IMG/VR virus record: IMGVR_UViG_3300025168_000775
Span: 1-21,833 of that record
Length of the DNA: 21,833 nucleotides
Source: a virus
Strand: one strand, 5' to 3'
Below, one piece after another: positions 5,746 to 21,574 of the stretch. Below the pieces are notes generated by a model. It was not told where the DNA came from. It saw only the letters and a list, made by a program, of their open reading frames with translations, and ran no database searches. Position 1 is the first letter of the stretch, and every line of letters begins with the position of its first letter. Both the position numbers and the translations under genes were made by a program.

Positions 5746-6883
5746 CATTGTATTTGAAGAACTAGAAAGAATATCAGATTCCAAAATACGTGTTTTTCAA
5801 GGAGGAAGTAGAAGCGGTAAAACTTTTAATATTTTACTATGGATTATATTTAGCTACTGCTATAAAAACAAGAATAAGACTATATCTATATGTCGTAAGA
5901 CTTTACCTAGTTTAAAAGCTTCAGTACTACGAGACTTCTTAGAAATATTAAGATCTAACGAATTATATAGTGAGATATATCATAACAAGACTTCTAATGA
6001 ATATTGGTTAAATGGTAACTTAATAGAATTCTTTAGTCTTGACATGGGTTCTAGAGTAAGAGGTAGGAAAAGAGATCTGCTATTTGTAAACGAAGCAAAC
6101 GAGATAGACTACGAATCATGGTCTCAGTTGTTATTTAGAACAGACGGAGGTATAATCATTGACTATAATCCTCATGATCAGTTTCATTGGATATACGATA
6201 AAGTCTTAGATCGAGACGATTGCCAACTACATATATCTACTTACATAGATAATCCATTTATAAGTAAGACACTAAAAGATGAGATAGAAAGATTAAGAAT
6301 AACAGACCCACAATATTGGAGAGTATATGGACTAGGACTACGAGGTCAGAATAGATCATTAGTGTTTAAGTTTAATATAACAGATAAGATACCAGAAGAA
6401 GCAAAGCTATTAGCATACGGTTTAGACTTTGGATTCAGTAACGACCCAAGCTCGATGTGTGCGACTTACGTGTTAGGAGATGACATGTATGTTAAGGAAC
6501 TTCTATATAGTACAGGATTAACTAACCAAGACATTAGTAGAGAGTTTGACAAATTAGGTTTAGATAGAAGAGATGAGATCTTTGCTGATAGTTCAGAACC
6601 TAAATCAATTGAAGAACTACATAGAATGGGATGGAATGTAAAAGGCAAAAAGAAATATGAGATTAACTACGGTATAGATCTTATAAGAAGATACAGATTA
6701 AACGTGACTAAAGATAGTACTAATGCTATAAAGGAATTAGAAAGCTATAAGTTTATAGAGGATAAAAATGGTAACCCTACAAATAAGCCATTAGACAAAA
6801 ACAATCACTTCTGTGATAGTCTACGTTATTCAGTAGTACATAAATTGTCTTATCCTAATTACGGTAGATACGCTATTAAATAA
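5726..6883 (+). CDS. terL: Terminase large subunit
   Basis: The 385-residue packaging motor has the ATPase and nuclease halves in order. Walker A is G-G-S-R-S-G-K-T (26-33) and Walker B is L-L-F-V-N-E-A-N-E (118-126) with Glu catalytic. D-Y-N-P-H-D-Q-F-H-W (146-155) is the usual motif after Walker B. The RNase-H-like nuclease acidic residues are Asp234 (G-L-D-F-G-F-S-N-D-P), Asp288 (F-A-D-S-S-E-P) and Asp364 (H-F-C-D-S-L-R-Y). It translocates DNA into the prohead using ATP and cuts concatemers. The length is slightly short but complete. The gene is the last plus-strand gene before the minus-strand island; a weak hairpin with TTTT at 6919-6957 may end its transcript. Confidence 0.96.
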   Translation: MKQIQTNIVFEELERISDSKIRVFQGGSRSGKTFNILLWIIFSYCYKNKNKTISICRKTLPSLKASVLRDFLEILRSNELYSEIYHNKTSNEYWLNGNLIEFFSLDMGSRVRGRKRDLLFVNEANEIDYESWSQLLFRTDGGIIIDYNPHDQFHWIYDKVLDRDDCQLHISTYIDNPFISKTLKDEIERLRITDPQYWRVYGLGLRGQNRSLVFKFNITDKIPEEAKLLAYGLDFGFSNDPSSMCATYVLGDDMYVKELLYSTGLTNQDISREFDKLGLDRRDEIFADSSEPKSIEELHRMGWNVKGKKKYEINYGIDLIRRYRLNVTKDSTNAIKELESYKFIEDKNGNPTNKPLDKNNHFCDSLRYSVVHKLSYPNYGRYAIK

Positions 6884-6910
6884 AAAAAGGAGGGAAGTCC
6901 TAAGACCTCC
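6882..6910 (-). terminator. Rho-independent terminator for the leftward unit ending at 6976
   Basis: Read on the minus strand, GGAGG (complement of 6906-6910) pairs with CCTCC (complement of 6889-6893), with a 12-base loop that contains a further GTC/GAC pairing. Seven T residues follow (complement of the A-run 6882-6888). It sits 66 bases past the stop of the leftward gene. On the plus strand it lacks a T tract, so it should act mainly leftward. Confidence 0.65.
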
Positions 6911-6918
6911 ACTCCTAT

Positions 6919-6957
6919 CACGAAACACACAACCGATCAAAGTGAGTATCGTGTTTT
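6919..6957 (+). terminator. Weak terminator-like hairpin after terL
   Basis: CACGAAAC (6919-6926) and GTATCGTG (6946-6953) can form an 8-pair stem with one A-A mismatch around a 19-base loop, followed by TTTT (6954-6957). It lies between converging transcription units, where a rightward terminator for the terminase operon is expected. The short T tract and large loop make this tentative. Confidence 0.4.
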
Positions 6958-6975
6958 ACTAAACAAGTTATAAAA

Positions 6976-7167
6976 TCAGACCTCGATCGGAATACTGAAT
7001 TCTAGACCACCTTCAGGTGCTACGTCAGGATATTTATCAATTGCATTTAAGAAGGTAATATTTTCTTCTACTAACTTTTCAAAGCTTCTAATAAAAAGTG
7101 ACGATGTACACCAAAAATGGTGATTCTCTTTGTAGCAATATACTACGTAACCTTTTTTATTTTTCAT
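6976..7167 (-). CDS. Unknown small protein, 63 aa, minus-strand island
   Basis: The product begins with a basic tail (M-K-N-K-K-G) followed by strand-like Y-V-V-Y-C-Y, and ends with G-G-L-E-F-S-I-P-I-E-V. The middle holds H-H-F-W-C and a helix around F-I-R-S-F-E-K-L. I do not recognise a family. Its ATG overlaps the stop of the upstream leftward gene (TAATG), so the two are translationally coupled and share a transcript that ends at the terminator at 6882-6910. It could be a small regulator or an anti-host factor; the sequence does not say. Confidence 0.55.
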   Translation of the reverse strand: MKNKKGYVVYCYKENHHFWCTSSLFIRSFEKLVEENITFLNAIDKYPDVAPEGGLEFSIPIEV

Positions 7168-7412
7168 TATGATCTATTTAAAAAGTCATCCACTAGATCT
7201 TGCGGAGTTAGGTTAGGTCTATCTACTATTTCTAAAAAGTACTTAGCATCTCTTTTAAGTATAAGAAGGTAGTTATACCTATTATGTTCAATCTCTGTTA
7301 AAGAGTGCAATGTGTTTGCTTTTAGTGCACCAAAGTTGAAAAATATGTCCGATGTTTCAATATCTACTTTAGACTTAAACATCGTTGTTGAAGTTTGTGT
7401 TTGTGTTTTCAT
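7167..7412 (-). CDS. Unknown protein, 81 aa, minus-strand island
   Basis: The start chosen is the ATG at 7412-7410, not the TTG at 7427, because the ATG lies in the same place inside a 20-base leader that also surrounds the start of the other leftward gene (7990). The N-terminus is Thr/Gln-rich (K-T-Q-T-Q-T-S-T-T), followed by a mixed alpha/beta body with I-F-F-N-F-G, Y-N-Y-L-L-I-L-K-R and an acidic end (Q-D-L-V-D-D-F-L-N-R-S). There is no recognisable family, signal peptide or membrane segment. The next gene is coupled to it by a one-base overlap. Confidence 0.6.
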   Translation of the reverse strand: MKTQTQTSTTMFKSKVDIETSDIFFNFGALKANTLHSLTEIEHNRYNYLLILKRDAKYFLEIVDRPNLTPQDLVDDFLNRS

Positions 7413-7425
7413 ACAGCTAATATAC
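7406..7425 (-). promoter_or_regulatory. Shared leader motif, copy B
   Basis: The plus-strand sequence TTTTCATACAGCTAATATAC covers the start codon (CAT at 7410-7412) and 13 upstream bases of the leftward gene. The second copy at 7984-8003 differs at one base. Both copies have AAATT(G/T) a few bases further upstream and another AATTGT about 40-50 bases before the start. It may be a promoter/5' leader or an operator controlling both units. Confidence 0.5.
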
Positions 7426-7456
7426 AATTTTTTTTATTAATAATACAATTTTAAGC

Positions 7457-7486
7457 AAAAAAAAACCTACTAATTAAAGTAGGCTT
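7457..7486 (-). terminator. Rho-independent terminator after the 7990-7508 gene
   Basis: On the minus strand AAGCCTAC pairs with GTAGGTTT (one G-T wobble) around the loop TTTAATTA, and the stem runs into a T tract formed by the nine A residues at 7457-7465. It lies 22 bases beyond the stop of the leftward gene and separates it from the second leftward unit. Confidence 0.8.
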
Positions 7487-7507
7487 AATTTTAAATATAA
7501 ATAAATT

Positions 7508-7990
7508 CTAAAAATTAGGGTCTTGATAACTACAAGCAGAGCCAAAGTGTAAATGTACTCTACATGATCTTTTCTTATATACAGTATAACCTTCTAAATT
7601 TTTTCTTTCATCGTACATAAGATCGAAACATTTTTTACCTATTTCAGTAGTACGAGACCAATCCCAAGTAGAACCATATTTTTCAATGATCTGATCTTGT
7701 ACTTCTGGAATCCAATGAACTTCATGGTAAACTTTCTTGAAACAAGGATAACCTTTATACGTACCCATTTCAATAACCATCTCTTGTCCGTTAACAGTAG
7801 ATTTAAAAGTATGTTGTTGATTGCTGTAATAATCTGAATCAGCAGTTGGTATAGCTTTAAGCTCTCTAATTCTAATTCTCTTACTTGATATGTTCTCAAT
7901 AACTTCGTAAGGGTATCGATCTGAACCGACACTTTTAGTAATACCTGTACCTACAGGATAGTCGTTTAAATTTATTTGTGTGTTTTTCAT
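7508..7990 (-). CDS. Unknown 160-aa protein with SDRYPYEVIE motif, minus-strand island
   Basis: The N-terminal 45 residues hold G-T-G-I-T-K-S-V-G-S-D-R-Y-P-Y-E-V-I-E and then R-I-R-I-R-E. This resembles a small beta-barrel-like module seen in scattered phage and plasmid proteins (G-x-x-x-x-S-D-R-x-x-x-x-V), which I cannot name. The middle carries T-V-N-G-Q-E-M-V-I-E-M-G and a Trp-rich stretch (V-H-W-I-P, S-T-W-D-W-S-R). The C-terminus has two Cys and R-V-H-L-H-F-G. It is a single-gene unit with its own leader (7984-8003) and a strong terminator (7457-7486). A moron-like accessory role is inferred from layout alone. A 97-codon ORF inside it in another minus frame is a shadow. Confidence 0.65.
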   Translation of the reverse strand: MKNTQINLNDYPVGTGITKSVGSDRYPYEVIENISSKRIRIRELKAIPTADSDYYSNQQHTFKSTVNGQEMVIEMGTYKGYPCFKKVYHEVHWIPEVQDQIIEKYGSTWDWSRTTEIGKKCFDLMYDERKNLEGYTVYKKRSCRVHLHFGSACSYQDPNF

Positions 7991-8003
7991 ATAGCTAATA
8001 TAC
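7984..8003 (-). promoter_or_regulatory. Shared leader motif, copy A
   Basis: The plus-strand sequence TTTTCATATAGCTAATATAC covers the start codon (CAT at 7988-7990) of the 160-aa gene and its upstream bases. It matches copy B at 7406-7425 with one difference. On the minus strand, TAAATTTA lies just upstream and is one base off the Bacteroidota -7 consensus TAnnTTTG. Confidence 0.5.
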
Positions 8004-8053
8004 TAAATTTATAATACACCGAACAATTTTTATAAATATTTTTTTAGTAAAGT

Positions 8054-8061
8054 TATTTTTG
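8054..8061 (+). promoter_or_regulatory. Bacteroidota-type -7 element upstream of the virion operon
   Basis: TATTTTTG fits TAnnTTTG exactly and lies 13 bases before the ATG at 8075, in the divergent gap between the leftward island and the rightward virion genes. About 20-25 bases upstream is T-rich sequence, with no perfect TTTG -33 box. This is the most promoter-like site in the gap, and transcription of the long rightward gene set is expected to begin near here. Confidence 0.42.
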
Positions 8062-8074
8062 TTATTATAACTAT

Positions 8075-8746
8075 ATGAATATAAGAGTTAAAGTGCCTAC
8101 TAAATTATCAGAGCTTACATTATCTCAGTATCAAAAGTATTTAAGAATACAAGCAGATAATAAAGACACAACGTTTGTAGCACAAAAGATGGTAGAGATA
8201 TTCTGCGGCTTAAGTTTAGATCAAGTTGTTAGAATGAAATGGAGAGACGTAAAAGAAATAACAGAAGAGTTAGGAGACTTATTCGATCTAGAGTCACAAT
8301 TTATAAAGAAGTTTACTTTTAATAATACTAACTACGGATTTATACCTAACTTAGATGAAATTAGTTTTGGAGAATTTGTAGATCTAGATTCATGTTTACA
8401 AGATTGGCAAAAGATGCACCATGCTATGCAGATATTATATAGACCTATTGACATACAAGTAAGAGGTAGATACAATATAAAAGACTATGATGGTGTGTTA
8501 GATGATACAATGAAAGAAATACCATTAGATGTAGCTTTAGGATCGGTTTTTTTTTTATTGAATTTAGGGAAAGAGTTGTCGGAAGTTACGATGGACTATT
8601 TCAGCAAGGGGATTCTAACGGAACATTCTCAAGTGAAGGAGGATTTAATGCCAAATGGGGTTGGTACAACAGCTTTTTTCAGGCAAGTCAAGGAGATCTT
8701 AGGGTCTTTGAAGATATTTCCAAACTCGGGCTACATAAAGTATTAA
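8075..8746 (+). CDS. Tail-assembly-chaperone-like protein, zero-frame product (223 aa)
   Basis: The N-terminal 160 residues are helical with typical phage codon use (A/T third positions). They contain L-S-E-L-T-L-S-Q-Y-Q-K-Y (12-23), I-F-C-G-L-S and a repeated acidic helix pattern, and end in P-L-D-V-A-L-G-S-V-F-F. I associate this with the small tail proteins at the start of the tail block in Bacteroidota phages. From codon 161 the zero frame runs on for 63 codons (L-L-N-L-G-K-E-L...K-Y) with atypical codons such as GGG, GAG, AAG and TCG, while the -1 frame there has normal third positions. A T TTT TTA heptamer lies exactly at the switch, so two products with different C-termini are likely. 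The chaperone role is inferred by analogy with lambda G/GT. Confidence 0.7.
   Translation: MNIRVKVPTKLSELTLSQYQKYLRIQADNKDTTFVAQKMVEIFCGLSLDQVVRMKWRDVKEITEELGDLFDLESQFIKKFTFNNTNYGFIPNLDEISFGEFVDLDSCLQDWQKMHHAMQILYRPIDIQVRGRYNIKDYDGVLDDTMKEIPLDVALGSVFFLLNLGKELSEVTMDYFSKGILTEHSQVKEDLMPNGVGTTAFFRQVKEILGSLKIFPNSGYIKY
8551..8557 (+). promoter_or_regulatory. Programmed -1 frameshift site T TTT TTA
   Basis: The heptamer is in the correct phase: zero-frame codons are TTT (8552-8554) and TTA (8555-8557). It is embedded in a run of ten T (8547-8556). U UUU UUA is a classical -1 slippery sequence. A -1 slip enters a frame that stays open for 86 more codons and ends 11 bases inside the next gene. No strong downstream hairpin is evident; a weak GTC...GAC pairing lies about 20 bases on. 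Confidence 0.7.
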
Positions 8747-8817
8747 TGTATTTAGAATATATAACAGAAAAAGCAATGTTAGAAAATCAAAGATTAAAAA
8801 GAAACCATGGCAGATAA
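8554..8817 (+). CDS. -1 frame C-terminal extension of the tail-chaperone-like protein (fusion 247 aa)
   Basis: There is no start codon of its own that makes sense; it is read as a continuation of the 8075 gene after slippage. The 86-residue extension starts I-E-F-R-E-R-V-V and contains F-N-A-K-W-G-W-Y-N-S-F-F-Q-A, G-D-L-R-V-F-E-D-I and L-G-L-H-K-V-L-M-Y-L-E-Y, and ends with a charged helix (E-K-A-M-L-E-N-Q-R-L-K-R). The K-W-G-W-Y block followed by a helical H-x-x-L-x-x-L-x-Y segment looks like a conserved tail-protein module. Its TAA overlaps the next gene by 11 bases, the same overlap seen at two other junctions here (2109 and 3893), which supports this as the true gene end. The alternative explanation is a homopolymer length error in the assembly. 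Confidence 0.68.
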   Translation, partial: FIEFRERVVGSYDGLFQQGDSNGTFSSEGGFNAKWGWYNSFFQASQGDLRVFEDISKLGLHKVLMYLEYITEKAMLENQRLKRNHGR

Positions 8818-9277
8818 AGCACAAAGAGGATTTTACTTAATTACCGAAGCAATAAAAACAGAATTAATATCAAATCAAGGTATTAAGACTTGTACTTTTG
8901 GTGATATATCAGATATAGACTTACAAAAACAGACTATGTTTCCTTTAGGACATGTAATAATAAACAATGTAACTAATCTTGAGAAAGTATTACAATTTAG
9001 TTTTACAATTCTTACAATGGAACAAATTGACTCTGTCGATGAATACGTGGATGATCTATGGACAGGTAACAGTAACATGCAAGATATATTAAATACTCAA
9101 TTAAGTGTGTCTAATAGATTAATGGCTAAATTAAAAAGAGGACAATTATATGCAGATGGATATGAAGTAGTAGGGAACGCAACTTGTGAACCGTTTTTTG
9201 ATAGATTCGAAAATATATTAGCAGGATGGGCAACTACTTTTACAGTGCAAATGTTTAACGATACAAGTGCTTGTTAA
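8807..9277 (+). CDS. Tail terminator / tail-completion-like structural protein
   Basis: The 156-residue product starts with an amphipathic helix (R-G-F-Y-L-I-T-E-A-I-K-T-E-L) followed by beta-type segments C-T-F-G-D-I-S-D-I-D and F-P-L-G-H-V-I-I-N-N, and a strand F-S-F-T-I-L-T-M. It then has an acidic loop, a helix (D-I-L-N-T-Q-L-S-V-S-N-R-L-M-A-K-L) and a final strand W-A-T-T-F-T-V-Q-M. The helix-strand-helix-strand layout and size resemble tail terminators (lambda gpU-like), and the next gene looks like gp10. The start is fixed by the 11-base overlap with the frameshift extension. The role is inferred from fold pattern and place, so other tail-joining roles are possible. Confidence 0.5.
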   Translation: MADKAQRGFYLITEAIKTELISNQGIKTCTFGDISDIDLQKQTMFPLGHVIINNVTNLEKVLQFSFTILTMEQIDSVDEYVDDLWTGNSNMQDILNTQLSVSNRLMAKLKRGQLYADGYEVVGNATCEPFFDRFENILAGWATTFTVQMFNDTSAC

Positions 9278-9798
9278 TGGATTTTAAAAGAACAAAAGAA
9301 ACTTTAATAGAATTTGCAACTAAAGTTGTTAAGCTTGCTAAAAGAAATGCAAGAAAGAAAAAGGCAAGTGGTAGTCTACAAAGATCTATAAGATATAACT
9401 TACATGAAAGTACAAATTCAATGGAGTTAGATTTCTTAATGAATGACTATGGTAAATATGTAGATGCAGGTGTAGATGGTAAAAGTAAGAAGTATGGCAA
9501 AAGAAAATTTGGATTAAAAACATATAGTTATAAAGATAAGATGCCGCCAACAAAGAAGTTAGATAAATGGGTGGTTAGAAAAAACATTAAAGGAATAAGA
9601 GACGCGAAAGGAAGATTTAAAAACAGACAATCAATACTATTTGCTATAGCTAAAAGTATTTTTGCAAAAGGATTTAAACCAACCTATTTTTTTACAGATG
9701 CATTTGAACAAGAATATAAAAGACTGCCAGATGAATTTTTAGACGCATACTCTTTAGACGTAATTGATTTTTTAGAACAAACAACAAAGACACAGTAA
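9277..9798 (+). CDS. HK97 gp10-like tail completion / neck protein
   Basis: The start is taken at the ATG at 9277, which forms a TAATG junction with the previous gene; the TTG at 9271 adds only two residues. The 173-residue protein is very basic. A-K-R-N-A-R-K-K-K-A-S-G-S-L-Q-R-S-I (about 25-42) followed by S-M-E-L-D-F-L-M-N-D-Y-G-K-Y-V-D-A-G-V-D-G is the pattern of gp10-like proteins (T-G-x-L-x-x-S-I ... Y-G-x-Y-V-E-x-G). A K-D-A/G-R-F region and a helix with F-F-T-D-A-F follow. These proteins help join head and tail or complete the tail. The match is good in the N-terminal half. Confidence 0.66.
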   Translation: MDFKRTKETLIEFATKVVKLAKRNARKKKASGSLQRSIRYNLHESTNSMELDFLMNDYGKYVDAGVDGKSKKYGKRKFGLKTYSYKDKMPPTKKLDKWVVRKNIKGIRDAKGRFKNRQSILFAIAKSIFAKGFKPTYFFTDAFEQEYKRLPDEFLDAYSLDVIDFLEQTTKTQ

Positions 9799-9799
9799 C

Positions 9800-10813
9800 A
9801 TGGCAAATTATTTAGCAAGACTTAGATCTCCATTTTTTATAGAAGAAACCTCAACAGCTGCAACAGTAGGATCTGCGGATGTAACTATTACAATCAACTC
9901 AGTAGTTGTGTATGTATTATCTAAAGATACAATAAGTAAAAAAGTAACAATAGAAGTTGCTGAACTTATACGAGATTATGTAGACACAAAGTGGGATGGA
10001 GTCTTTCCTTATTCAGCTTCTGTTTTAGCAAGTCTTACGATCTTAGCAGCAATTAAAGTAGAATTTTACGTAAACAATAAAAAAGTAAGAGCAACAAACG
10101 CATTAGCAGGAACAGCAGATTCACCAATAGGTGGTCAAACAGTTAATCATAATATATACGGATTTGATGCATACTCTGAGTATCTAGAAGGAGTAAACCA
10201 TCAATTAAGTTATGGTCAATTATTACAATCAGCAACAACAATGTACTTGCCTGAAACTGGAAATGCATATATTCCTAAAATAATAAACACAGCTAATCCA
10301 GTTCCTGCCGCTTCAGTTGAATATGTTACAGTAGCTCCTACGGATACTGTAAAAACTATTGGAGGGATTCAAGTTAATATTGTAAGAATATGTGAACCGA
10401 TCTACGATATTATTAGAGTTGTATTTATGAATAAGTTTGGAGCATTACAAGAATTTAGCTTTAATAAAAAGAATGTATTATCATTAGAGACAGTCCAAGA
10501 AAATTATGAATCAATGTTAATGGGATCTCAATTAGATTACTTGTCTAACAACTTACCACATCAAAAATACGTTTACAATAAACAAGGAAGAGAAACGTTG
10601 CAATTAAATACTGGATACGTAGATGAAGGGCAGTTTGAAACTATAAAACAATTAATGTTATCTGAAAAAGTATGGGCACAAATAGATAGCACTGTTTATC
10701 CTGTTAATATAAATACGAGTTCACTTACTAAAAAAACCAAAATAAATGATAAATTAGTAAACTATTCTTTAGATTTTACTTTTGCATTTGATATAGTAAA
10801 CAGCGTGAGATAA
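9800..10813 (+). CDS. Phage tail structural protein, 337 aa (baseplate/distal tail candidate)
   Basis: The N-terminal 100 residues are beta-rich (A-D-V-T-I-T-I-N, K-K-V-T-I-E-V-A-E-L-I-R-D-Y). The middle is Gly/Asn-rich. The C-terminal 80 residues carry R-E-T-L-Q-L-N-T-G-Y-V-D-E-G-Q-F and L-M-L-S-E-K-V-W, then V-N-I-N-T-S-S-L-T-K-K-T-K and L-D-F-T-F-A-F-D. This C-terminal block recurs in Bacteroidota phage tail proteins as I remember them. It starts one base after the preceding stop and its own stop shares a base with the ATG of the giant tail gene, so the two are likely made together. The exact position in the tail is unknown. Confidence 0.5.
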   Translation: MANYLARLRSPFFIEETSTAATVGSADVTITINSVVVYVLSKDTISKKVTIEVAELIRDYVDTKWDGVFPYSASVLASLTILAAIKVEFYVNNKKVRATNALAGTADSPIGGQTVNHNIYGFDAYSEYLEGVNHQLSYGQLLQSATTMYLPETGNAYIPKIINTANPVPAASVEYVTVAPTDTVKTIGGIQVNIVRICEPIYDIIRVVFMNKFGALQEFSFNKKNVLSLETVQENYESMLMGSQLDYLSNNLPHQKYVYNKQGRETLQLNTGYVDEGQFETIKQLMLSEKVWAQIDSTVYPVNINTSSLTKKTKINDKLVNYSLDFTFAFDIVNSVR

Positions 10814-13800
10814 TGAGCAAATTCCAATTATACATAGGTAGCCAAAGAGTTGAGTTATTTAAAGATGAATCAGTTAGCTTAACTGAAACAATCCAAGATA
10901 TAAAAGATGTATCAAAAGTGTTCACAGATTTTACAAAACCTTTTACACTACCAGCAAGTGATACTAATAACAAGATCTTTAAACATTACTATAAATTTAA
11001 TATTGCACAAGGTTTTACATTTGACGCTAGGAAAAAGGTAAGTGCTAAGATCGAATTAAATACTGTACCTTACAAAGATGGTAAAATTAGACTAGAAGGC
11101 GTAGATCTAGAAAATGGTAAACCTAAATCATATAGAATTACTTTTTTTGGAAACACAGTTAACTTAAAAGATATACTAGGAGATGATTTAATTAACGGAC
11201 TAAGTTGGCTTTCAAATTTTAATTTAACTTATAGCGCTAATAAGATAGAGGAAGTTATGACAACTTCTACAGGTTATTCTCCTACTATAGGTGGTGTACA
11301 ATATAATAAAGCTATAATAGTTCCATTAATTTCTAACACGCAAAGATTATATTATAGCACAACAAATAGAATACCTTATAATAACGCAGATGGAACGATA
11401 AATTCTGCACTAGGTGGAAACTTATACCCTACAGATAATGGCTCAGGAACTAAAACAACTGACGATATACACGGAGTTTTATTTGAAGATCTAACATACG
11501 CTATACAAATAGATCTAATTGTAAAAGCAATAGAGGAAGAATATACTGATATTAAATTCAGCGATGACTTTTTTAATTTAACTAATGGACCTGATAGTTA
11601 TAAAAAACTATACATGTTGTGTCAGAAAAAAGAAGGTAGACCATTCGAAGACATGTCTGTAGGAGAGAGATTAATAACAGGATTTAGTACAGGTATAAAT
11701 AATAACATAGTAACATCGTTTGCAGGTATAAGCGTATTTGGATTAAACCCTAGTCAATTTATAACTGCTAAATGGACTTTAACAACTGGACAAGCTCACC
11801 CTACTTTTACGGCAGTATTAAGAGAAGGTAGTGAAGAAGTACTAAGAAGAAAATTTATTGGAGGTACTAGTTCTACAGCTATTATAACTCAGTTTCTAAC
11901 TAATTCAGAACAAGGATATAATTTAACTATAGAGACAGAGTCTGCGTTTGATATTACAAGTGTGTTGTTTGAAGGTTCTACACCTAGTGGTAATACTTTA
12001 TCATCACAGATAAACACAACAATAGCAGTGGAAGTACAAAAAGAGTTTGTAGTTCAACAACATTTACCAAACATGAAAGTTGTAGATTTTCTTACATCTC
12101 TTTTTAAAATGTATAATCTTACAGCTTTTGAGCTTGATGGAATTATACACGTTAAGACATTAGAAAGCTTTTATTCGAGTGGTTCTTTAAGAGATATAAC
12201 AGAATTTGTAGACCCTCAAACATTACAAATAGATAAAGCTTTACCTTATAGAGAGATTGAGTTTAAATATGATGACACAGAAACAACATTAGCTAAGCAA
12301 CATTTTGAATCAAATGGAGTAAGATGGGGAGCAGCAAAATATATAGAGACAGGTAACTTAAATAGTAACGATCAAAAGTTTGACGTAGTATCTAATTTTG
12401 CACATTTAAAATACGAGAGAATAGTCAGTTCTATAGGTTCTAATACAGATATACAATGGGGATTTTTAGCTAATGAAAAGAATGAACCGTTTTTTCAAAA
12501 CGCAGTTGTGTTTATAGGAGACTTTGTAACACTACCTACAGGTAATACTTTAAGATTTTTAAGTGGTACAACTTCTGTAGGTGAGATACACGATGTAACA
12601 GAATATTGGATGCCATCAAATACAGTTGAACGAGATTCGACAGTTAGCAAAGAAAGTATACATTTCAGCGTAGAGCTAAGCGAATGGGATTCGACGGCGT
12701 CATTTACAGATACTTTGTTTAATAAGTATCATAGATTTTATATTGCAGGCTTATTTAATTCTGCAAAACGATTAAGTAAGATAAAAGCAAGACTACCTAA
12801 AAAGTTTATGCTTAACTATACACTAGCGGATACTGTTATTATAAATCAAGATAGATATAAAATAAATAGTATAACAACTGATTTGTTAAGTGGGTCAAGT
12901 CAATTAGAATTACTTAATGAAACAATAAACGACGCAACTATAACACAAGATGATACTGGTGGAGAGGGTGGTCAAACAGGAGTTGCATTAACAAACGTGT
13001 TAACTTTATTTCAATGTGCAGCTCCTAATTCTACATTTGAAAGCACATTAACATTAGCTGATTTAAATTTAGCAGTAAACATTAGAGTAGAAGATGCAGC
13101 AGGAAACACTTATAGAGTTACAGGTAATAACGTTCCAAATACTCATACAACAAAAGCAGTAACATCAACTGGAGAAACTGGATGCCCTTCTGGAACTACA
13201 CCACCTCCTACTAATTATTATGGATTAAGAAGATGTAGTGATGGAGCAACAAACTTGAGGACTTCTACAGCTGTAGGATCTCCTTCATATCAAACGACAC
13301 AACAAGTCTTTGATTCAAGTTCAGTAAAATACGTGATTGAAAATTCATCAACCGCAGATACTGTACCTAGTATAACTATAGCTTCAACTCCAAGTCCAGT
13401 TCAGTTAACATGTTCTGGAAATTCATCAGGTGGTACAACTCATAATTACTCGTTGACTCCTTGTTGTGGTGGTACAGTTTTATTTGGTTTTAGTTCAAGT
13501 AACTCGTTATCAGGTATTAGAATTTATCAAAATCAAAGTTACACTTTAGCTGCTTCTAATACTAGCGGAGCTATAAATATAGATCTATTAAACTCTGGTT
13601 CTTGTCCTATTAGTTACTATAGTTTAAATAGTTGTTCAGACGGATCCTTTCAGCATCATGCTCGAAGTGTATGTAGTAATTTAAACAACACGCAATTAAC
13701 TTATAACGGAACTTGTTATTCAGTACAAAATTCAACAAACACAACAGGGACCGTGAATTTAGATACACTAAACTCTTGTACTTGTAGCAATCCAAATCCA

Positions 13801-15207
13801 ACGTATTATCTTTTAAGAGATTGTGCTACTGTTACTATAGTTAGAACCTCTACAACAACAACCGATCTAACTTTAAATGTAAGTTCTACATTAGCTAATG
13901 CATCTAGAGTGCAAGATACAAATACAGGTAAATGTTACACAGCTAATTCTACTACACAAGATACAGTAACTTATCCAACAGCTATAGGAGCAGTAACATC
14001 TCTTGGAGTTAATGATTGTCCATCTACACCTTGTACCACAACTCAATACTATAATTTACAACAGTGTTCTACAGGTAACACAGGATTTATTAGTGCACAA
14101 ACAACTGATCAAATAGCTTTATCAGTAAATGATATGGTGACTTCAGGCTCAACAAATGGACCGTTATATAAAGTGTTAGGAAATGCTACGAGTGGAAATT
14201 CTGTTGGAACTGTTTTTGCAAATGCAGCTACTGCTTGTCCTGCTTATTACACTTTGACTCAATGTTATACGAATCAGACAGGGTATAGAACTGATAACAC
14301 AACTACAGAAATTACATTATCAAATGGACGAAGAGTACAAGGTCCTAATGGTATGCCTTATACAGTTACAGGGACAGTAGGGTCAGGGTTAGCAAATATA
14401 GGTACAGTAACAGATACAGGTCAAACAGGTTGTCCAACAATTACAGGATCTACTCAATATTATCAATTAGAAAGATGTTCAGATAGTGTTACTGGTTTCT
14501 TATCACTACAAACAGTTAATGATATAAATTTAAGTACAAATGATGTAGTAGGTTTAGGTAGTGCATCAGGAGTTACATATCAAGTAACAGGTACTGGATT
14601 AGCAAATACAGGTACACAAGTTGGAGTTGTTGCAGATACAGGAAACACTAATTGTTTAACACCTGTTACACCACCAGTTGTACCGGGTACTACAACTTAT
14701 GCTAGATTTATATCATGTGACGATCCTACAGGTGCTATTATTAGTGTATCTAGTACACAATCTATAGGAACTTGGTGGGTTATTTCAGAAGTTGGTCAGT
14801 TTGAATGTTATAGATGGTTAGATAATACACAAGGAGTAAATCCTATTGAGTTAAATAGTTCTAACTTTAATTTTTACACAGTAGAGTCTACAGCTGGTGC
14901 TAATTGTAGTGACTGTCAATCTGTAGTTCCTCCTCCAGCTCCAGCACCTAGACCTCCATCACAAACTTGTTTTACGTTAAGTTTATTAAGATCGTCTACT
15001 GCTTTAAATCTATGTGATGTAGTTCCTACTACAGTGTATGCTAATAATTCTACACTTGCATCAGCATCAATTATATATTCTAATAGTGATTGTACTACTT
15101 TAGAATCAGTAGATAGGTATTTAGCATCTAGTATTGGAGCAGGTTATTACTTTTGGAACGCATCTGCACAAACATTAACAGGTTCATTTACTTTAAACTG
15201 TCCATAA
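10813..15207 (+). CDS. Large tail/adhesin protein with about ten Cys-containing C-terminal modules
   Basis: The largest gene in the window encodes 1464 residues. The first ~730 residues look like a baseplate or central tail protein: beta-rich with V-F-T-D-F-T-K-P-F-T-L-P-A (36-48), then a long mixed domain ending near E-L-L-N-E-T-I. From about 732 the protein changes to tandem modules of 55-90 residues, each opening with Y-Y-x-L-x-x-C (near 801, 879, 935, 998, 1079, 1145, 1216; variants at 1296 and 1386) and usually closing with a T-G-x-x-x-C-P-like turn. Thr, Ser, Asn and Cys are enriched. A Pro-rich linker (P-P-P-A-P-A-P-R-P-P) precedes the last module. The modules are probably receptor-binding or glycan-binding domains. 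Its stop overlaps a prolyl-hydroxylase-like gene. Tail location is confident by context; receptor binding is inferred. Confidence 0.75.
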   Translation: MSKFQLYIGSQRVELFKDESVSLTETIQDIKDVSKVFTDFTKPFTLPASDTNNKIFKHYYKFNIAQGFTFDARKKVSAKIELNTVPYKDGKIRLEGVDLENGKPKSYRITFFGNTVNLKDILGDDLINGLSWLSNFNLTYSANKIEEVMTTSTGYSPTIGGVQYNKAIIVPLISNTQRLYYSTTNRIPYNNADGTINSALGGNLYPTDNGSGTKTTDDIHGVLFEDLTYAIQIDLIVKAIEEEYTDIKFSDDFFNLTNGPDSYKKLYMLCQKKEGRPFEDMSVGERLITGFSTGINNNIVTSFAGISVFGLNPSQFITAKWTLTTGQAHPTFTAVLREGSEEVLRRKFIGGTSSTAIITQFLTNSEQGYNLTIETESAFDITSVLFEGSTPSGNTLSSQINTTIAVEVQKEFVVQQHLPNMKVVDFLTSLFKMYNLTAFELDGIIHVKTLESFYSSGSLRDITEFVDPQTLQIDKALPYREIEFKYDDTETTLAKQHFESNGVRWGAAKYIETGNLNSNDQKFDVVSNFAHLKYERIVSSIGSNTDIQWGFLANEKNEPFFQNAVVFIGDFVTLPTGNTLRFLSGTTSVGEIHDVTEYWMPSNTVERDSTVSKESIHFSVELSEWDSTASFTDTLFNKYHRFYIAGLFNSAKRLSKIKARLPKKFMLNYTLADTVIINQDRYKINSITTDLLSGSSQLELLNETINDATITQDDTGGEGGQTGVALTNVLTLFQCAAPNSTFESTLTLADLNLAVNIRVEDAAGNTYRVTGNNVPNTHTTKAVTSTGETGCPSGTTPPPTNYYGLRRCSDGATNLRTSTAVGSPSYQTTQQVFDSSSVKYVIENSSTADTVPSITIASTPSPVQLTCSGNSSGGTTHNYSLTPCCGGTVLFGFSSSNSLSGIRIYQNQSYTLAASNTSGAINIDLLNSGSCPISYYSLNSCSDGSFQHHARSVCSNLNNTQLTYNGTCYSVQNSTNTTGTVNLDTLNSCTCSNPNPTYYLLRDCATVTIVRTSTTTTDLTLNVSSTLANASRVQDTNTGKCYTANSTTQDTVTYPTAIGAVTSLGVNDCPSTPCTTTQYYNLQQCSTGNTGFISAQTTDQIALSVNDMVTSGSTNGPLYKVLGNATSGNSVGTVFANAATACPAYYTLTQCYTNQTGYRTDNTTTEITLSNGRRVQGPNGMPYTVTGTVGSGLANIGTVTDTGQTGCPTITGSTQYYQLERCSDSVTGFLSLQTVNDINLSTNDVVGLGSASGVTYQVTGTGLANTGTQVGVVADTGNTNCLTPVTPPVVPGTTTYARFISCDDPTGAIISVSSTQSIGTWWVISEVGQFECYRWLDNTQGVNPIELNSSNFNFYTVESTAGANCSDCQSVVPPPAPAPRPPSQTCFTLSLLRSSTALNLCDVVPTTVYANNSTLASASIIYSNSDCTTLESVDRYLASSIGAGYYFWNASAQTLTGSFTLNCP
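13006..15204 (+). repeat. Coding tandem repeat: YYxLxxC modules
   Basis: About ten diverged modules are visible at the protein level. The best conserved three (starting near 14047, 14245 and 14458) share Y-Y-x-L-x-x-C, then T-G-(F/Y)-x-(S/T), a strand with (I/L)-x-L-S, V-x-G/x, Y-x-V-x-G and G-T/V-V-x-x-x-G-x-T-x-C. At the DNA level the copies are clearly diverged, so the array is old or under strong diversifying pressure and is not a fresh duplication. Confidence 0.7.
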
Positions 15208-15821
15208 TGAAAGAAATAGATAACTTTATTTCACTTGAAGAGTCAAAATACTTAATAAATATGATTAATAAGTATGCAACTAAGTCTATGGTTGTTGGAA
15301 ATGGACAAAAATATACAGATTATAGTAGTCAAAGAACATCATACACATCTAATTTAGTATCAGATGACCCTACAGTTGAGTCTATACAGCTAAGAATTGC
15401 TAGATATTTAGGTATACCAGTTACAAAAGGTGAGGCTTTACAAGGTCAAAGGTATGAGAAAGGCCAATTTTTCAAGCCACATGTTGATTATTTTAGTAAG
15501 GATAGTTATGATAAGAACTGTTTAGCTAGTGGAAATAGAACATTTACTTTTATGTTATACTTAAATGATGACTTTACAGGTGGTACAACTAAGTTTCCAC
15601 ATATAAATCTAGAAATACAACCAAAAAAATGTAAAGGAGTGGTTTGGAATAATTTACAAAACGGAGTTATTAATGAATACATGCAACACAGCGGAGAAGA
15701 AGTAACTAATGGTGTAAAGTATATCATAACATCTTGGTGGCGTGAGAATATATGGAATAATAGTGAAGATCAAAAGGAATACGAAAAAAAACTAAAAAGT
15801 AGTCAATTAAGTATTATATAA
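15207..15821 (+). CDS. 2-oxoglutarate/Fe(II) oxygenase, prolyl-4-hydroxylase-like
   Basis: The 204-residue enzyme has the full set of family residues: G-Q-R-Y-E-K-G-Q-F-F-K-P-H92-V-D94 (the H-x-D iron pair), F-M-L-Y-L-N-D-D-F-x-G-G-T-T-K-F-P (115-131), distal His161 and Lys171 (V-K-Y-I-I-T-S-W-W-R), which should bind 2-oxoglutarate. These enzymes hydroxylate Pro or other residues using O2. The start is the ATG at 15207 in a TAATG junction; a TTG at 15153 would run back through the upstream gene. Its place directly behind the Pro/Thr/Asn-rich tail protein suggests that protein as substrate. That is inference; phage 2OG oxygenases also act on nucleic acid or host proteins. Confidence 0.85.
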   Translation: MKEIDNFISLEESKYLINMINKYATKSMVVGNGQKYTDYSSQRTSYTSNLVSDDPTVESIQLRIARYLGIPVTKGEALQGQRYEKGQFFKPHVDYFSKDSYDKNCLASGNRTFTFMLYLNDDFTGGTTKFPHINLEIQPKKCKGVVWNNLQNGVINEYMQHSGEEVTNGVKYIITSWWRENIWNNSEDQKEYEKKLKSSQLSII

Positions 15822-15825
15822 GTAT

Positions 15826-15978
15826 ATGTTAAACAATATAATTGATTTATTGCAAATAGTAAATGGTGAAACCGAGAACATAAAGTTTGCACAAGGCTCA
15901 AAATATCTACCTGATAATTGGAAAGATGGTTTAAAAATGGCTAAGAAAGCAGCTAAATGGGAATTAGATAAAAAATAG
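15826..15978 (+). CDS. Small unknown protein, 50 aa
   Basis: An ATG-started frame fills the gap between the oxygenase and tape measure genes with four and two bases to spare. The product has an N-terminal helix (N-N-I-I-D-L-L-Q-I-V), a G-S-K-Y-L-P-D-N-W-K-D-G-L segment and a Lys/Ala-rich C-terminal helix (M-A-K-K-A-A-K-W-E-L-D-K-K). There is no family I recognise. Codon use matches the neighbours and the spacing is gene-like, so it is probably expressed, perhaps as a minor tail or assembly factor. Confidence 0.6.
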   Translation: MLNNIIDLLQIVNGETENIKFAQGSKYLPDNWKDGLKMAKKAAKWELDKK

Positions 15979-15980
15979 AT

Positions 15981-17636
15981 ATGGCAAGAGAAAAGGATAT
16001 AGTATTAAAAGCCACCTTAGACAGTGAACAAGCTGAACAAGGTTTAAAAGACTTATCTCAAGATACTAAAGCGTTAGAAACAAACATGGATGAGCTAGAT
16101 GGTGCTGCTGATAAAGCCACTGGCGGAATGATTTCTGGTTTTACTAATGCTAAAAAAGCTATTGTTGGAGCTGTAAAGAGTATTAATACATTTGGTAAAG
16201 CAATTAAAGCAGCAGGAATAGGATTACTAATTGCAGGAATAGCAGCAGTTGCAGCAGCTTTTACTAATTCAGAAGAAGGACAAAACAAGTTTGCAAAATT
16301 AATGACACAAATAGGTGTTATTACAGGTAACGTGTTAGATATTATGGAAGATCTAGGTAAATCTATTTTAAGCCTAGGTAAATCATTTGTAAAATTAGTA
16401 AAGGGAGATTTTGCAGGTGCAAAGGAAGCTTTTAGTGAAGTTACAGAAAGTATTGGAGAAGCAATCGATGGAGTTAAGAACTTTGGAGAAGAAACAAGAA
16501 AAGAAATAAAGATAGCAGGCGATTTAGCAGATGCTAGAGCTAGAGCAGATAAGATTGAAAGAAGATTAATAGTTGATAGAGCTAAAGCAGATAAAGAAAG
16601 AGCTGACTTATTAGAAAAAGCTGTTGATAAAGATAAGTTTACAACAGAAGAACGTATTAAGTTTCTAGAGGATGCTAGTAAATTAGAAGAAGAAATTACT
16701 GATAAAGAAATTAATCTAGCTAAAATTAGATTACAAGCAAGAGTACAGGAAAATAAGCTATCAGGTTCTACTAAAGAAGATCTACAAGAGGAAGCAGAAC
16801 TAAGAGCACAGGTTATTCAACTAGAAACCTCTAGATTAACAAAGCAAAAGGAAGTAACGTCTCAAATTATTGGTTTAAGAAACGAAGAGAAGACAGCTAA
16901 AGAGACATTTATAAATGCAGAGCGAGAAGCATTAGCACAAAGTGAAGATGAGAAGATTGCTTTATTAATATTAAAGGAGCAAGAAAAATTTGATGAACTA
17001 GTTAAAAAAGCAGAAGAACTTAAACAGCCAACTGAAGATCTAGAAAAAGCTAAATTAATATCAATTCAGAAAATAAAAGACGAAGCTGCTGCTGTAGCTG
17101 ATAAGAAACAAAAAGAAGCAGATCAAAAGATGTTAGATCAACAACAAAAGACTGCAGATCTAGCAAAGAAGATAGAGAAGTCTAAATTAGATGCAGCAAT
17201 AGAGTTATCAGCATTAGGAATTGGTTTAATGGTAGAAGGATCTAACGCAGCTAAAGCATTAGGTATAGCAAATGCAATAATATCCACTTATTCAGGTGCA
17301 GCACAAGTTTTAGATGACACAGAACTACCTTTGTTTGCTAAGATAGCAGGAGTTGCAACTGTATTAGCTACAGGGTTTCAACAAGTAAGAGCAGTACAAC
17401 AAACACAAATACCAGTACTAAACGTAGGAGGTGTAACAGCTGGTGGAAATAGTGCACCAGTACCACAAATACAACCACCAAACTTTAATGTTGTAGGAGC
17501 ATCACCAATAAATCAATTAACTGCTGCAATATCTAGTCAGCAATCACAACCTATAAGAGCTTACGTTGTAGCTAATGATGTTACTACTGCTCAAAGCATT
17601 GATAGAAACATAATAAAAACATCAGGACTAGGATAA
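15981..17636 (+). CDS. Tail tape measure protein
   Basis: The 551-residue protein has the usual tape-measure composition. An N-terminal helix set (L-D-S-E-Q-A-E-Q-G-L-K-D-L-S...) is followed by a Gly/Ala-rich hydrophobic segment at about 73-95 (K-A-A-G-I-G-L-L-I-A-G-I-A-A-V-A-A-A-F). A long charged coiled coil runs from about 170 to 400, a second hydrophobic segment lies around 402-470, and the Gln/Pro-rich tail is less structured. It sets tail length and may cross the host membrane on DNA ejection. Using roughly 0.15 nm per residue, it predicts a tail of about 80 nm, which suits a siphovirus-like particle. The frameshift chaperone-like gene is 7 kb upstream instead of adjacent. Confidence 0.85.
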   Translation: MAREKDIVLKATLDSEQAEQGLKDLSQDTKALETNMDELDGAADKATGGMISGFTNAKKAIVGAVKSINTFGKAIKAAGIGLLIAGIAAVAAAFTNSEEGQNKFAKLMTQIGVITGNVLDIMEDLGKSILSLGKSFVKLVKGDFAGAKEAFSEVTESIGEAIDGVKNFGEETRKEIKIAGDLADARARADKIERRLIVDRAKADKERADLLEKAVDKDKFTTEERIKFLEDASKLEEEITDKEINLAKIRLQARVQENKLSGSTKEDLQEEAELRAQVIQLETSRLTKQKEVTSQIIGLRNEEKTAKETFINAEREALAQSEDEKIALLILKEQEKFDELVKKAEELKQPTEDLEKAKLISIQKIKDEAAAVADKKQKEADQKMLDQQQKTADLAKKIEKSKLDAAIELSALGIGLMVEGSNAAKALGIANAIISTYSGAAQVLDDTELPLFAKIAGVATVLATGFQQVRAVQQTQIPVLNVGGVTAGGNSAPVPQIQPPNFNVVGASPINQLTAAISSQQSQPIRAYVVANDVTTAQSIDRNIIKTSGLG

Positions 17637-17652
17637 AATACATTATACAATT

Positions 17653-18498
17653 ATGAAGATCATAGAATTAATATTAGATGAGAATTTAGAATTTAATGGA
17701 GTTGACGCAATATCAATTGTAGAAAATCCAGCTATACAAAGTAATTTTGTAGCATTAAAAGACGAGCAAGTAAGATTAGCGGAAATATCAAAAGATAAAA
17801 GAATGTTATTAGGAGCAATACTAATTCCTAACAAACCTATTTTAAGAAACGGAGAAGAAGAAGACTATTATATTTATTTTAGCAAAGATACTGTTGAAAA
17901 AGCAAGTCAAATGTATTTAAAAGAAGGCAATCAACACAATGCATCTTTAGAACATGAGTATTCATTAAAAGGATTAACGTTAGTAGAGAGCTGGATAGTA
18001 CAAGATGGTGTGCATGATAAGAGTAGGTTGTATGATAATACAAAAGACGTGCCAATTGGTACATGGATGGGAGCAATAAGAGTAGATTCAGATGAAGTAT
18101 GGAAAGATTACGTAAAAGAGGGTGTTGTAAAAGGTTTTTCAATAGAAGGTTATTTTGCAGATAAAGCCGATTCACCAAATGAAACAATAAATGACTTATT
18201 AGCTGAGCAACAGTTGAGTAATATAAAGAATTTATTAGTAGAGTTAGAAACAAAAGTAATAGATGATGAGTTTGCTATTATAGATGATAGGTTAGCTTAT
18301 AGTTCAGAGGATAAAGCTATACTAGTAGCTTCTAATATAGGATGTGAAGGTGTACATGAACATGAAGTTGAAGGGAAAACATGGTACATGCCTTGTGAAC
18401 AACATGAATTAAAGAAACCTTGCTATGATGGATACGAAATGTATGGTTGGAAAATGAAAAACGGTAAAAAGGTCCCTAACTGTATACCACAAAAATAA
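17653..18498 (+). CDS. XkdF-like prohead protease with Cys/His-rich C-terminal extension
   Basis: The 281-residue product starts with I-E-L-I-L-D-E-N and S-I-V-E-N-P-A-I (21-28), the standard opening of XkdF-like phage serine proteases. Candidate catalytic parts are His95/His101 (Q-H-N-A-S-L-E-H-E-Y-S) and Ser163 in V-V-K-G-F-S-I-E-G-Y-F, after G-T-W-M-G-A-I-R-V (136-144). It would mature the scaffold and capsid. Beyond residue ~220 is an added region: C231-E-G-V-H-E-H, W-Y-M-P-C248-E-Q-H, then C257-Y-D-G-Y-E-M and G-K-K-V-P-N-C277. The Cys/His spacing looks like a metal-binding knuckle. It lies upstream of scaffold and capsid genes, fitting the role. Confidence 0.78.
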   Translation: MKIIELILDENLEFNGVDAISIVENPAIQSNFVALKDEQVRLAEISKDKRMLLGAILIPNKPILRNGEEEDYYIYFSKDTVEKASQMYLKEGNQHNASLEHEYSLKGLTLVESWIVQDGVHDKSRLYDNTKDVPIGTWMGAIRVDSDEVWKDYVKEGVVKGFSIEGYFADKADSPNETINDLLAEQQLSNIKNLLVELETKVIDDEFAIIDDRLAYSSEDKAILVASNIGCEGVHEHEVEGKTWYMPCEQHELKKPCYDGYEMYGWKMKNGKKVPNCIPQK

Positions 18499-18502
18499 AA
18501 TA

Positions 18503-18640
18503 ATGGCTAAAAAATTCTACACTGCCGCGGAAATACTTAAAAAAAAAGTAACAAGGAAAGGTGTGCATGCTAAAACTAAAACAAGTAAGTTAAAAGCAAG
18601 CAAGCATTATAAAAAAACTTATAAAGGTCAAGGAAGATGA
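18503..18640 (+). CDS. Small basic protein, 45 aa
   Basis: The product is almost all Lys, Arg, Thr, Ser and Gly: an opening F-Y-T-A-A-E-I-L-K-K-K-V, then R-K-G-V-H-A-K-T-K-T-S-K, then S-K-H-Y-K-K-T-Y-K-G-Q-G-R. I associate the K-G-V-H-A-K-T-K-x-S-K ... Y-K-G-Q-G-R pattern with tiny proteins near capsid genes of Bacteroidota phages. It may bind nucleic acid or help capsid assembly; no function is known to me. Its TGA overlaps the next ATG as ATGA. Confidence 0.66.
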   Translation: MAKKFYTAAEILKKKVTRKGVHAKTKTSKLKASKHYKKTYKGQGR

Positions 18641-18786
18641 AAAAAACTAATAGAAAAAATCCTTATCCATCTTACTCTAGTCCTATAAGATCAACGAGAG
18701 GATGTTTGTGTGATGATAATACTTACCATCCTAGATGTTGCGATGGTACAATTTGGGCTCAAGGAGTAGGAAGAACTGAAACCTAG
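18637..18786 (+). CDS. Small Cys-cluster protein, 49 aa (CLC...CC motif)
   Basis: The product has a basic N-terminus (K-K-T-N-R-K-N-P-Y-P) and a compact core R-G-C-L-C-D-D-N-T-Y-H-P-R-C-C-D-G, followed by W-A-Q-G-V-G. Four Cys in C-x-C and C-C pairs within 14 residues, plus a His, suggest a zinc knuckle. I have the impression of similar C-L-C...C-C-D-G...A-Q-G-I-G peptides next to capsid genes in Bacteroidota phages. The gene is coupled to the basic protein by ATGA and sits between protease and scaffold. Function is unknown. Confidence 0.66.
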   Translation: MKKTNRKNPYPSYSSPIRSTRGCLCDDNTYHPRCCDGTIWAQGVGRTET

Positions 18787-18827
18787 TCTAAAAACATAAA
18801 AAAAAAACTATATAATATTATAAAGAT

Positions 18828-19412
18828 ATGAAAGCAATTGATACAATTACTAAAATCAAAACTTTGTTAGGCATGGAATTGTCTGAGAACAAAGCTGCAG
18901 AAGTAGAAGTTAAAGCTGAAGAAGTTGTTTTAGCTACTATGAATCTGGAGAACGGTACCGTACTAGAAAGCGAAGAGTTTACTAAAGGCAATGAAGTTTT
19001 TATTGTTACAGAAGACGAACGAGTTCCTGTACCTATCGGAGAATATCAGCTCGAGGATGGTAGAATGCTAGTTGTTACTGAAGAAGGAATCATTGACAGT
19101 TTAACCGAAGCAAATGAAGAAGAAGCTAAGGAAGAAGAAAAAACTGAAAATGAAGAATTAGGTAACGAGTATCCTACAAAAGAAGAGTTTGACGCATTAG
19201 TTAAAAGAATAGATGAACTAACTTTAAGTTTATCAGAATCTAAAACTAAACACGAGGAAGAAGTAACTGAACTAGAGACTCAGTTATCTGAGTTACCAGC
19301 AGCTAAGCCTATTACACATAGTCCTGAAGCTAAAGCTAAAGAAGTAGAGTTTCAATTTAGTTCAAATAGAGCAGAAACTTCTCTAGATAGAATAATGAAA
19401 AAATTAAGTTAA
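18828..19412 (+). CDS. Capsid scaffolding protein candidate
   Basis: This 194-residue acidic protein has a beta-type middle (V-L-A-T-M-N-L-E-N-G-T-V, G-N-E-V-F-I-V, V-P-V-P-I-G-E-Y-Q-L-E-D-G-R-M-L-V-V). A Glu/Lys-rich linker (about 94-112) and a coiled coil (about 116-155) follow, and a C-terminal basic helix ends R-I-M-K-K-L-S. An acidic coiled coil with a basic terminal helix immediately upstream of the capsid gene and downstream of the protease is the classical scaffold arrangement. The L-x-N-G-T and G-x-Y-x-L-x-D-G-R blocks recur in Bacteroidota phages as I recall. It would be cleaved and expelled during head maturation. Confidence 0.7.
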   Translation: MKAIDTITKIKTLLGMELSENKAAEVEVKAEEVVLATMNLENGTVLESEEFTKGNEVFIVTEDERVPVPIGEYQLEDGRMLVVTEEGIIDSLTEANEEEAKEEEKTENEELGNEYPTKEEFDALVKRIDELTLSLSESKTKHEEEVTELETQLSELPAAKPITHSPEAKAKEVEFQFSSNRAETSLDRIMKKLS

Positions 19413-19437
19413 TATAAATTTTTAAAATAAAAATAAA

Positions 19438-20361
19438 ATGAGTAAACCTACAATTACAACAACCTATGCCGGACAAAGCGCGAAAAAATATATAGCGGCG
19501 GCATTACTTTCAGGAACTACACTAGATAATGGTGGAGTAACTGTTATGCCAAACGTAGCACATAAAAGTGTTATACAAAAGGTAGCCGCATCTGGCTTAA
19601 TAAAAAATTCCACTTGCGATTTTGACGATCAAGGAACTATTGCAATTACGGAAAGAATTCTTACAACAGAAGAATTTCAAGTTAACGTTAAATTTTGTAC
19701 AAAACAATTTGTTGATTCTTGGGAATCAGCTGAATTAGGAGTTAGTGCATTTACAAATATGCCTTCAAGATTCTCAGACTTTATTATTGCAAACTTTGCA
19801 GATCAAATTGCTGCTTCAGTTGAAACTAATATATGGACGGGGACCAACGGAAACGCGGGAGAAATTGATGGGTATGAAACATTATGGGCTGCTGATGGTG
19901 ATGTTATTGATGTAGCAAACCCTGCTGCTATTACTGCTGCAAATGTTGTAGCAAAAATGGGAGCAACTGTAGATCTATGTCCTAACACTATTTATGGTAA
20001 GGATGATCTTAAGTTATATGTTTCTAAAGATGTAATGAAGAACTATATTAGAGCTTTAGGTGGTCTTGCCTTAGGTTTTGGTGGTGGTTACGAAAACAAA
20101 GGACAAATGTGGTATGGCAATCAACAATTAACGTTTGATGGAATTCCTATCTTTATGGCATCAGGTATGTCTACAAACACAATGGCTTTAGCTCAAACTT
20201 CAAATCTTTACTTTGGTACTTCAGTACTAAGCGATATGAACGAAGTTAGAGTTATTGATACTTCTGAGACGCTAGGAGATAGAAATGCAAGATTTATTTC
20301 TAGATTTGCTTACGGCATTCAATACGGTTTAGGAGCTGAAATAGTTCTTTATAACGCATAA
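19438..20361 (+). CDS. Major capsid protein (HK97-fold)
   Basis: The 307-residue protein has the flow of an HK97-type capsid: a short N-arm, an E-loop-like region around F-D-D-Q-G-T-I-A-I-T-E-R-I-L-T-T-E-E-F-Q-V-N, and a long spine helix (M-P-S-R-F-S-D-F-I-I-A-N-F-A-D-Q-I-A). A P-domain strand pair follows, and the A-domain includes K-L-Y-V-S-K-D-V-M-K-N-Y and L-T-F-D-G-I-P-I-F-M-A-S-G-M, the latter typical of capsids. The terminal segment is G-L-G-A-E-I-V-L-Y-N. Third codon positions include more C and G than the neighbours, as expected for a very highly expressed gene. The A-rich leader before the ATG (AAAATAAAAATAAA) is the strong type for Bacteroidota. Confidence 0.85.
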   Translation: MSKPTITTTYAGQSAKKYIAAALLSGTTLDNGGVTVMPNVAHKSVIQKVAASGLIKNSTCDFDDQGTIAITERILTTEEFQVNVKFCTKQFVDSWESAELGVSAFTNMPSRFSDFIIANFADQIAASVETNIWTGTNGNAGEIDGYETLWAADGDVIDVANPAAITAANVVAKMGATVDLCPNTIYGKDDLKLYVSKDVMKNYIRALGGLALGFGGGYENKGQMWYGNQQLTFDGIPIFMASGMSTNTMALAQTSNLYFGTSVLSDMNEVRVIDTSETLGDRNARFISRFAYGIQYGLGAEIVLYNA

Positions 20362-20380
20362 TTAAAAGAGTTAATAATCC

Positions 20381-20415: not shown

Positions 20416-20431
20416 ACAAAAATTAAAAAAT

Positions 20432-20965: not shown

Positions 20966-20986
20966 TAGTTTAGTGTTTTTCTAATT

Positions 20987-21017: not shown

Positions 21018-21068
21018 AAATAAAAGTGTACACAATATAAAAAAACTTAAAAAAGATATTATATATAT

Positions 21069-21572: not shown

Positions 21573-21574
21573 TT

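Follow-up and report, generated by a model that had tools for sequence, protein, structure and literature searches.

A predicted tail-tip hub protein with a probable distal fibre of cysteine-paired modules in an IMG/VR virus record

The tail hub and its known counterparts

The adhesion devices of phages are usually built of FNIII/Ig domains and beta-helices. The tail hubs of phages lambda and T5 carry two FNIII domains directly after the hub (PMC10721106), at the junction position that in the protein described here is taken by an array of small modules. In lambda, the fibre and the receptor-binding domain come after the FNIII domains (PMC11101478). Disulfides are known from phage Milano, the virion of which has an extensive disulfide network (PMC10811340).

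The window analysed is the whole stretch of 21,833 nucleotides of the IMG/VR virus record IMGVR_UViG_3300025168_000775 (positions 1-21,833). Its array gene, an open reading frame at 10813..15207 on the plus strand, encodes a protein of 1464 aa composed of a tail hub and a C-terminal module array, and orthologs of the same architecture are present in IMG/VR. The gene sits inside a tail gene cluster, with putative tail genes at 8075-10813 and a tape-measure-like gene at 15981. The terminase large subunit gene starts at 5726, and the capsid gene (19438) and the portal gene (21575) were assigned by reading their translations. The gene order in 5726-21833, i.e., terminase, tail hub, tape-measure-like gene and then capsid and portal, is unlike the usual order, in which the head genes precede those of the tail.

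The N-terminal hub core (10813..12936, plus strand; residues 1 to about 708) matched phrog_38559 in the PHROG database with an E-value of 1e-66, and its relatives were found at more than 500 IMG/VR loci. The AlphaFold2 model of residues 1-718, built from 46 sequences, had a pLDDT of 83 and a pTM of 0.79. The comparison of residues 1-708 by VIA-align gave Z scores of 10-11.8 to about two dozen hubs, among them the baseplate initiator of cyanophage A-1(L) (11.8) and the hubs of Milano (11.7) and HFTV1 (11.6), as well as T5 pb3 (11.1), VgrG (10.6) and Mu gp44 (10.1); phage 7-7-1 and diffocin matched as well (Z about 10-12). In Foldseek, hubs were also top-ranked, but with modest scores (E 5e-5, low TM-score), and the assignment therefore relies mainly on the VIA-align ranking. 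Based on this computed resemblance, residues 1 to about 708 are well supported as a predicted tail-tip/baseplate hub of the gp27/gp44/pb3/gpJ/VgrG type, which sharpens the preliminary description of the product as a tail protein. Presumably the hub would be trimeric and sit where the tail tube ends. A jelly roll resembling those of TNF, C1q and BclA (VIA Z 8-8.7) is inserted in the core at residues ~283-393.

As in lambda gpJ and T5 pb3, an N-terminal hub fold is directly followed by tandem small beta domains and a variable distal part. Unlike in these two proteins, the place of the FNIII domains, the helical shaft and the beta prism is taken by apparently unrelated modules with predicted disulfide pairs, and the sequence of the window protein revealed no tip like that of gpJ. 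The same hub core is found in phrog_38559, a family of unknown function that includes proteins of Nonlabens phages P12024L/S (26% identity with 97% of the query covered in tblastn); these proteins are ~750 aa long and carry no array.

The repeated modules and the search for their family

The two halves of the protein differ sharply at about residue 720. Residues 1-720 contain one Cys and 6.4% Lys, whereas residues 721-1464 contain 30 Cys and 0.5% Lys, which bears out the earlier claim of a Cys-rich, modular C-terminal half. T, S, N and G are abundant in the array, and His makes up 0.5% of it. Previously placed at 13006-15204, it was confirmed, with its start corrected to aa 728 (nt 12994), slightly before the former position. 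Ten modules, all on the plus strand, were delimited with boundaries placed by eye. Family A comprises M1 (12994..13212, aa 728-800, Cys 735/791) and M2 (13213..13440, aa 801-876, Cys 808/867), both recognised by profiles, M5 (13801..14043, aa 997-1077), and M6 (14044..14241, aa 1078-1143, Cys 1085/1142), M7 (14242..14454, aa 1144-1214, Cys 1151/1207) and M8 (14455..14694, aa 1215-1294, Cys 1222/1281), the last three recognised by both profiles and the model. M3 (13441..13611, aa 877-933) and M4 (13612..13800, aa 934-996, five Cys) form a subfamily. M9 (type B; 14695..14958, aa 1295-1382; Cys 1302, 1332, 1365 and 1368) has a Pro-rich linker, and M10 (type C; 14959..15204, aa 1383-1464; Cys 1386, 1401, 1427 and 1463) is the tip domain.

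The homology of the modules was computed with leave-one-out profiles, in which M1, M2 and M5-M8 outscored each of their 1000 shuffles, M3, M4 and M9 were marginal (their scores were reached by 26, 13 and 23 of 1000 shuffles, respectively) and M10 was negative; nine segments of the N-terminal half scored like shuffles. Likewise, the profile-profile comparison of ortholog alignments grouped M1, M2, M5, M6, M7 and M8, most pairs at 87-99%, with weaker values for M2-M1 (71-87%) and M2-M5 (47-60%). In the same comparison M3 and M4 formed a pair at 99%, with a weak link to the others (M4-M5, E 5e-4), and M9 and M10 stayed outside family A. For M6-M10, the AlphaFold2 model based on 35 orthologs had a mean pLDDT of 86, with family A blocks mostly between 82 and 94. 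The order of five predicted strands is identical in M6, M7, M8 and M9, while M10 is modelled as a different C-terminal domain. The profile tests and the model together point to eight related modules, with M9 sharing only the strand order and M10 being a different tip. The repeat reported in the preliminary description was thus recovered, and the structure prediction suggested there as a check yielded a repeated five-strand unit. The count of about ten Y-Y-x-L-x-x-C modules did not hold: the signature is exact in six (M2, M4-M8), deviates in M1 (LTLFQC), M3 (NYSLTPC) and M9 (YARFISC) and is absent from M10.

No significant match for the array or its modules was found in Pfam, NCBIfam or PDB, and no Pfam family was returned for the array at E-values up to 10. 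The 11 module sequences that were searched gave only weak Pfam hits, with neither FN3 nor Ig among them. The M6-M10 model had no fold match in the PDB (best VIA Z 3.5, Foldseek E >1), which neither proves a new fold nor speaks against an architecture like that of the lambda gpJ family, with FNIII domains, a central straight fibre and an Ig-like receptor-binding tip. PHROG scans of single modules gave weak matches only; phrog_27805, a family of unknown function with 73 positions, matched part of a module from locus L107 (E 1e-4) and is too short for the module to be filed under it. These results agree with the earlier remark that no named family was known for the repeat, and no well-known domain family emerged from the three databases. 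It is very unlikely that the modules represent an ordinary Ig/FN3-type family diverged too far for profile searches: although some relatives do carry FN3 at the same junction, no FN3 match was found by Pfam in the window protein, the canonical module has only ~62 residues with five strands predicted at high confidence, and both the permissive Pfam search and the structural comparison came back negative.

Among 50,697 records of isolated phages, no module was found with either the window array or the more regular L107 array as the query; a weak match in a Microcystis phage was rejected, as the protein lacks the module pattern. Five entries of the viral structure library matched below 1e-3, all of them unnamed multi-domain phage proteins. 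One module-like shape in a Sulfitobacter phage protein (rmsd 2.7) is without the Cys pair and the signature and was set aside as a common small-barrel shape. The module was not found in the profile search of bacterial genome contigs or in 395 phylum-level Bacteroidota genomes, and the 397 family-level Bacteroidota genomes gave a single match (E 4e-4), to a frame of 58 aa that contains a stop; in virus records, the same profile matches at 1e-28. The module is essentially absent from the ~790 sampled Bacteroidota genomes and is taken to be phage-specific. The array may resemble the Cys modules of cyanophages and giant viruses, a resemblance on which no conclusion here is based.

Pairing of the cysteines

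The total number of cysteines was even in all 37 non-identical arrays (30, 32 or 36). Every variable Cys column has exactly one partner with an identical presence pattern, with zero discordant sequences. The pairs computed in this way are 885/954 (M3-M4), 1041/1074 (an extra pair in M5), 1179/1274 (M7-M8), 909/929 (M3 of the sister clade) and one pair inside an insertion, while columns 991/992 merely shift against each other through the alignment. Two of the co-varying pairs, 885/954 and 1179/1274, span neighbouring modules; position 1179 of M7 is Cys in 11 of the 37 orthologs, always together with Cys 1274 of M8. Taking the tree into account left six independent Cys-pair comparisons, few but all in the same direction. 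The pair change in L149 comes with an altered M8, and so it may be a recombinational swap of that module. In each of 42 canonical modules on second-core and other arrays there are exactly two Cys. In M9, by comparison, all four Cys are invariant, and two of them form a CxxC.

This paired and even pattern is better explained by disulfides than by metal in all domains except possibly M9. Disulfide formation, one of the roles proposed earlier for the array cysteines, is well supported by their gain and loss in pairs and by the even counts. Binding of a metal such as zinc in place of disulfides is highly improbable for the array. Zinc sites would fit a reducing cytoplasm, and the four invariant Cys of M9 with their CxxC could provide one, but two Cys ~57 residues apart in a canonical module, together with the scarcity of His in the array and the strict change of variable Cys in twos, across modules too, argue against it. 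Of the earlier suggestion of metal binding, what is left is a possible site in M9, and for the canonical modules such binding is unlikely. The disulfides would presumably form after lysis or release, and the paired Cys changes predict specific bonds between modules.

Extensive disulfides in a tailed-phage virion are shared with Agrobacterium phage Milano, those of the window protein being predicted only. Unlike the bonds highlighted in Milano, which join separate sheath, tube and baseplate subunits, those predicted here would be confined to a single chain, where they also connect adjacent modules.

Exchange of modules and the proposed distal fibre

Most relatives of the hub terminate where the hub ends (~680 aa). 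Others continue with an FN3 domain (L098, E 2e-11; L079, E 0.0016), a lengthy extension lacking Cys (L048), PT-rich linkers together with domains of types B and C (L045), PKD-like domains and a single module (L053, L074), a module pair (L122) or some ten modules (L118), and DUF285 (leucine-rich-repeat-like), FN3 and PKD domains occur at comparable places in relatives. The hub junction is a fusion point. Since FNIII domains stand at the same junction in lambda and T5, followed in lambda by the fibre, the array is read as a distal tail fibre.

Throughout the window's own clade, the module architecture is constant (8 + 1 + 1). The family A module recurs on three unrelated phage proteins in 0 to ~10 copies, with tips swapped; thus, the earlier suggestion that modules vary in number holds across phages but not within this clade. 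The second module-bearing core is ~750 aa long and unrelated to the window hub. On second cores with N-parts 91-98% identical there are 6 or 7 family A modules, and the last 150 residues are mostly unrelated, while more distant relatives have 0, 1 or 3 modules. One relative of the second core is gp22 of Cellulophaga phage phi39:1 (24.7% identity over 22% of the query), a virion protein verified by mass spectrometry and located after the tape measure gene. Phage phi39:1 itself is without the module, and the modules sit on second-core relatives in uncultured phages. The third module-bearing protein (~500 aa; L146:4975-6441, L159) also contains three other repeats of ~70 aa with the pattern SPSTYQSGxxTYTANITVP, for which no family is known. 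The arrays of L113:6844-7590 and L115 end in a PKD-like plus DUF285 tip that is not related to those of their relatives.

Swapped tips and module numbers on cores 91-98% identical are the pattern expected under host-recognition selection. In addition, M10 varies more than any other part of the array, with a mean pairwise identity of 0.53 as compared with 0.60-0.72 for M1-M9 and 0.68 for the core. Both observations speak against the array being mainly a structural or protective extension that gives length, stiffness and protease resistance, with modules that bind nothing and another protein binding the receptor. Such a role, which we consider unlikely, would agree with the conservation of M1-M9 being about equal to that of the core, with the fixed module number in the window's clade and with the many relatives that consist of a hub without any array. 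The modules could also bind glycans, their avidity along the whole length loosely tethering the phage to cells coated with polysaccharide or to algal gel; the tip would then be incidental. The tandem copies, the adhesion-type composition (T, S, N and G rich, few Lys) and the FN3, PKD and DUF285 domains at comparable places in relatives are in line with this rather doubtful option, whereas no carbohydrate-binding family was matched in Pfam or PDB.

We prefer the reading in which the protein is probably a siphovirus-type, gpJ-like tail hub with a central or distal fibre of new, phage-specific, disulfide-stapled domains, the host being probably a member of marine Flavobacteriia. Residues 1 to about 708 would fold as the hub closing the tail tube, and the distal fibre would consist of eight small beta modules in a row, followed by the B module, the proline-rich linker and the variable tip. 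Each canonical module would be closed by one disulfide from the first strand (YYxLxxC) to the end (xxCP), and extra disulfides would staple neighbours, M3-M4 in the window and M7-M8 in other members. Synthesis in the host would yield the reduced protein, and its bonds would form in oxygenated water after lysis. Once oxidised, the array would take the place of the FNIII domains and fibre of lambda gpJ/T5 pb3 as a stiff arm that resists proteases. The array most likely serves to reach and bind the host cell; the tip, and perhaps the module faces too, would presumably bind the receptor on its surface.

More tentatively, the modules may constitute an undescribed, phage-specific family of small beta domains, each copy being closed by one disulfide and some being stapled to their neighbours. 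Tandem cassettes of them, with interchangeable tips, would pass between unrelated tail proteins of Bacteroidetes phages and would serve as a general fibre kit oxidised after lysis. The mechanism as such is familiar, but the libraries searched seem to contain no description of the module, of its cross-links or of its transfer from one core to another. If true, this would extend phage adhesion devices by a disulfide-based domain family and offer a sequence-based approach to host recognition among uncultured Bacteroidetes phages of marine origin.

A 2OG-Fe(II) oxygenase gene (15207..15821, plus strand; PF13640, E 2e-14, 54.6 bits against a curated cut-off of 27) shares a TAATG overlap with the array gene, to which it is coupled, and its product might hydroxylate the proline-rich linkers of the array protein. 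This gene accompanies large-array hubs and was seen next to none of the 43 naked hubs or of the 9 hubs whose tails are short or of another kind; the one- and two-module hubs (L053, L074, L122) are likewise without it. Two array loci listed without the oxygenase were duplicates, and their copy of the enzyme had been dropped because its sequence was identical. As the large-array phages are related to one another, shared descent may account for the co-occurrence.
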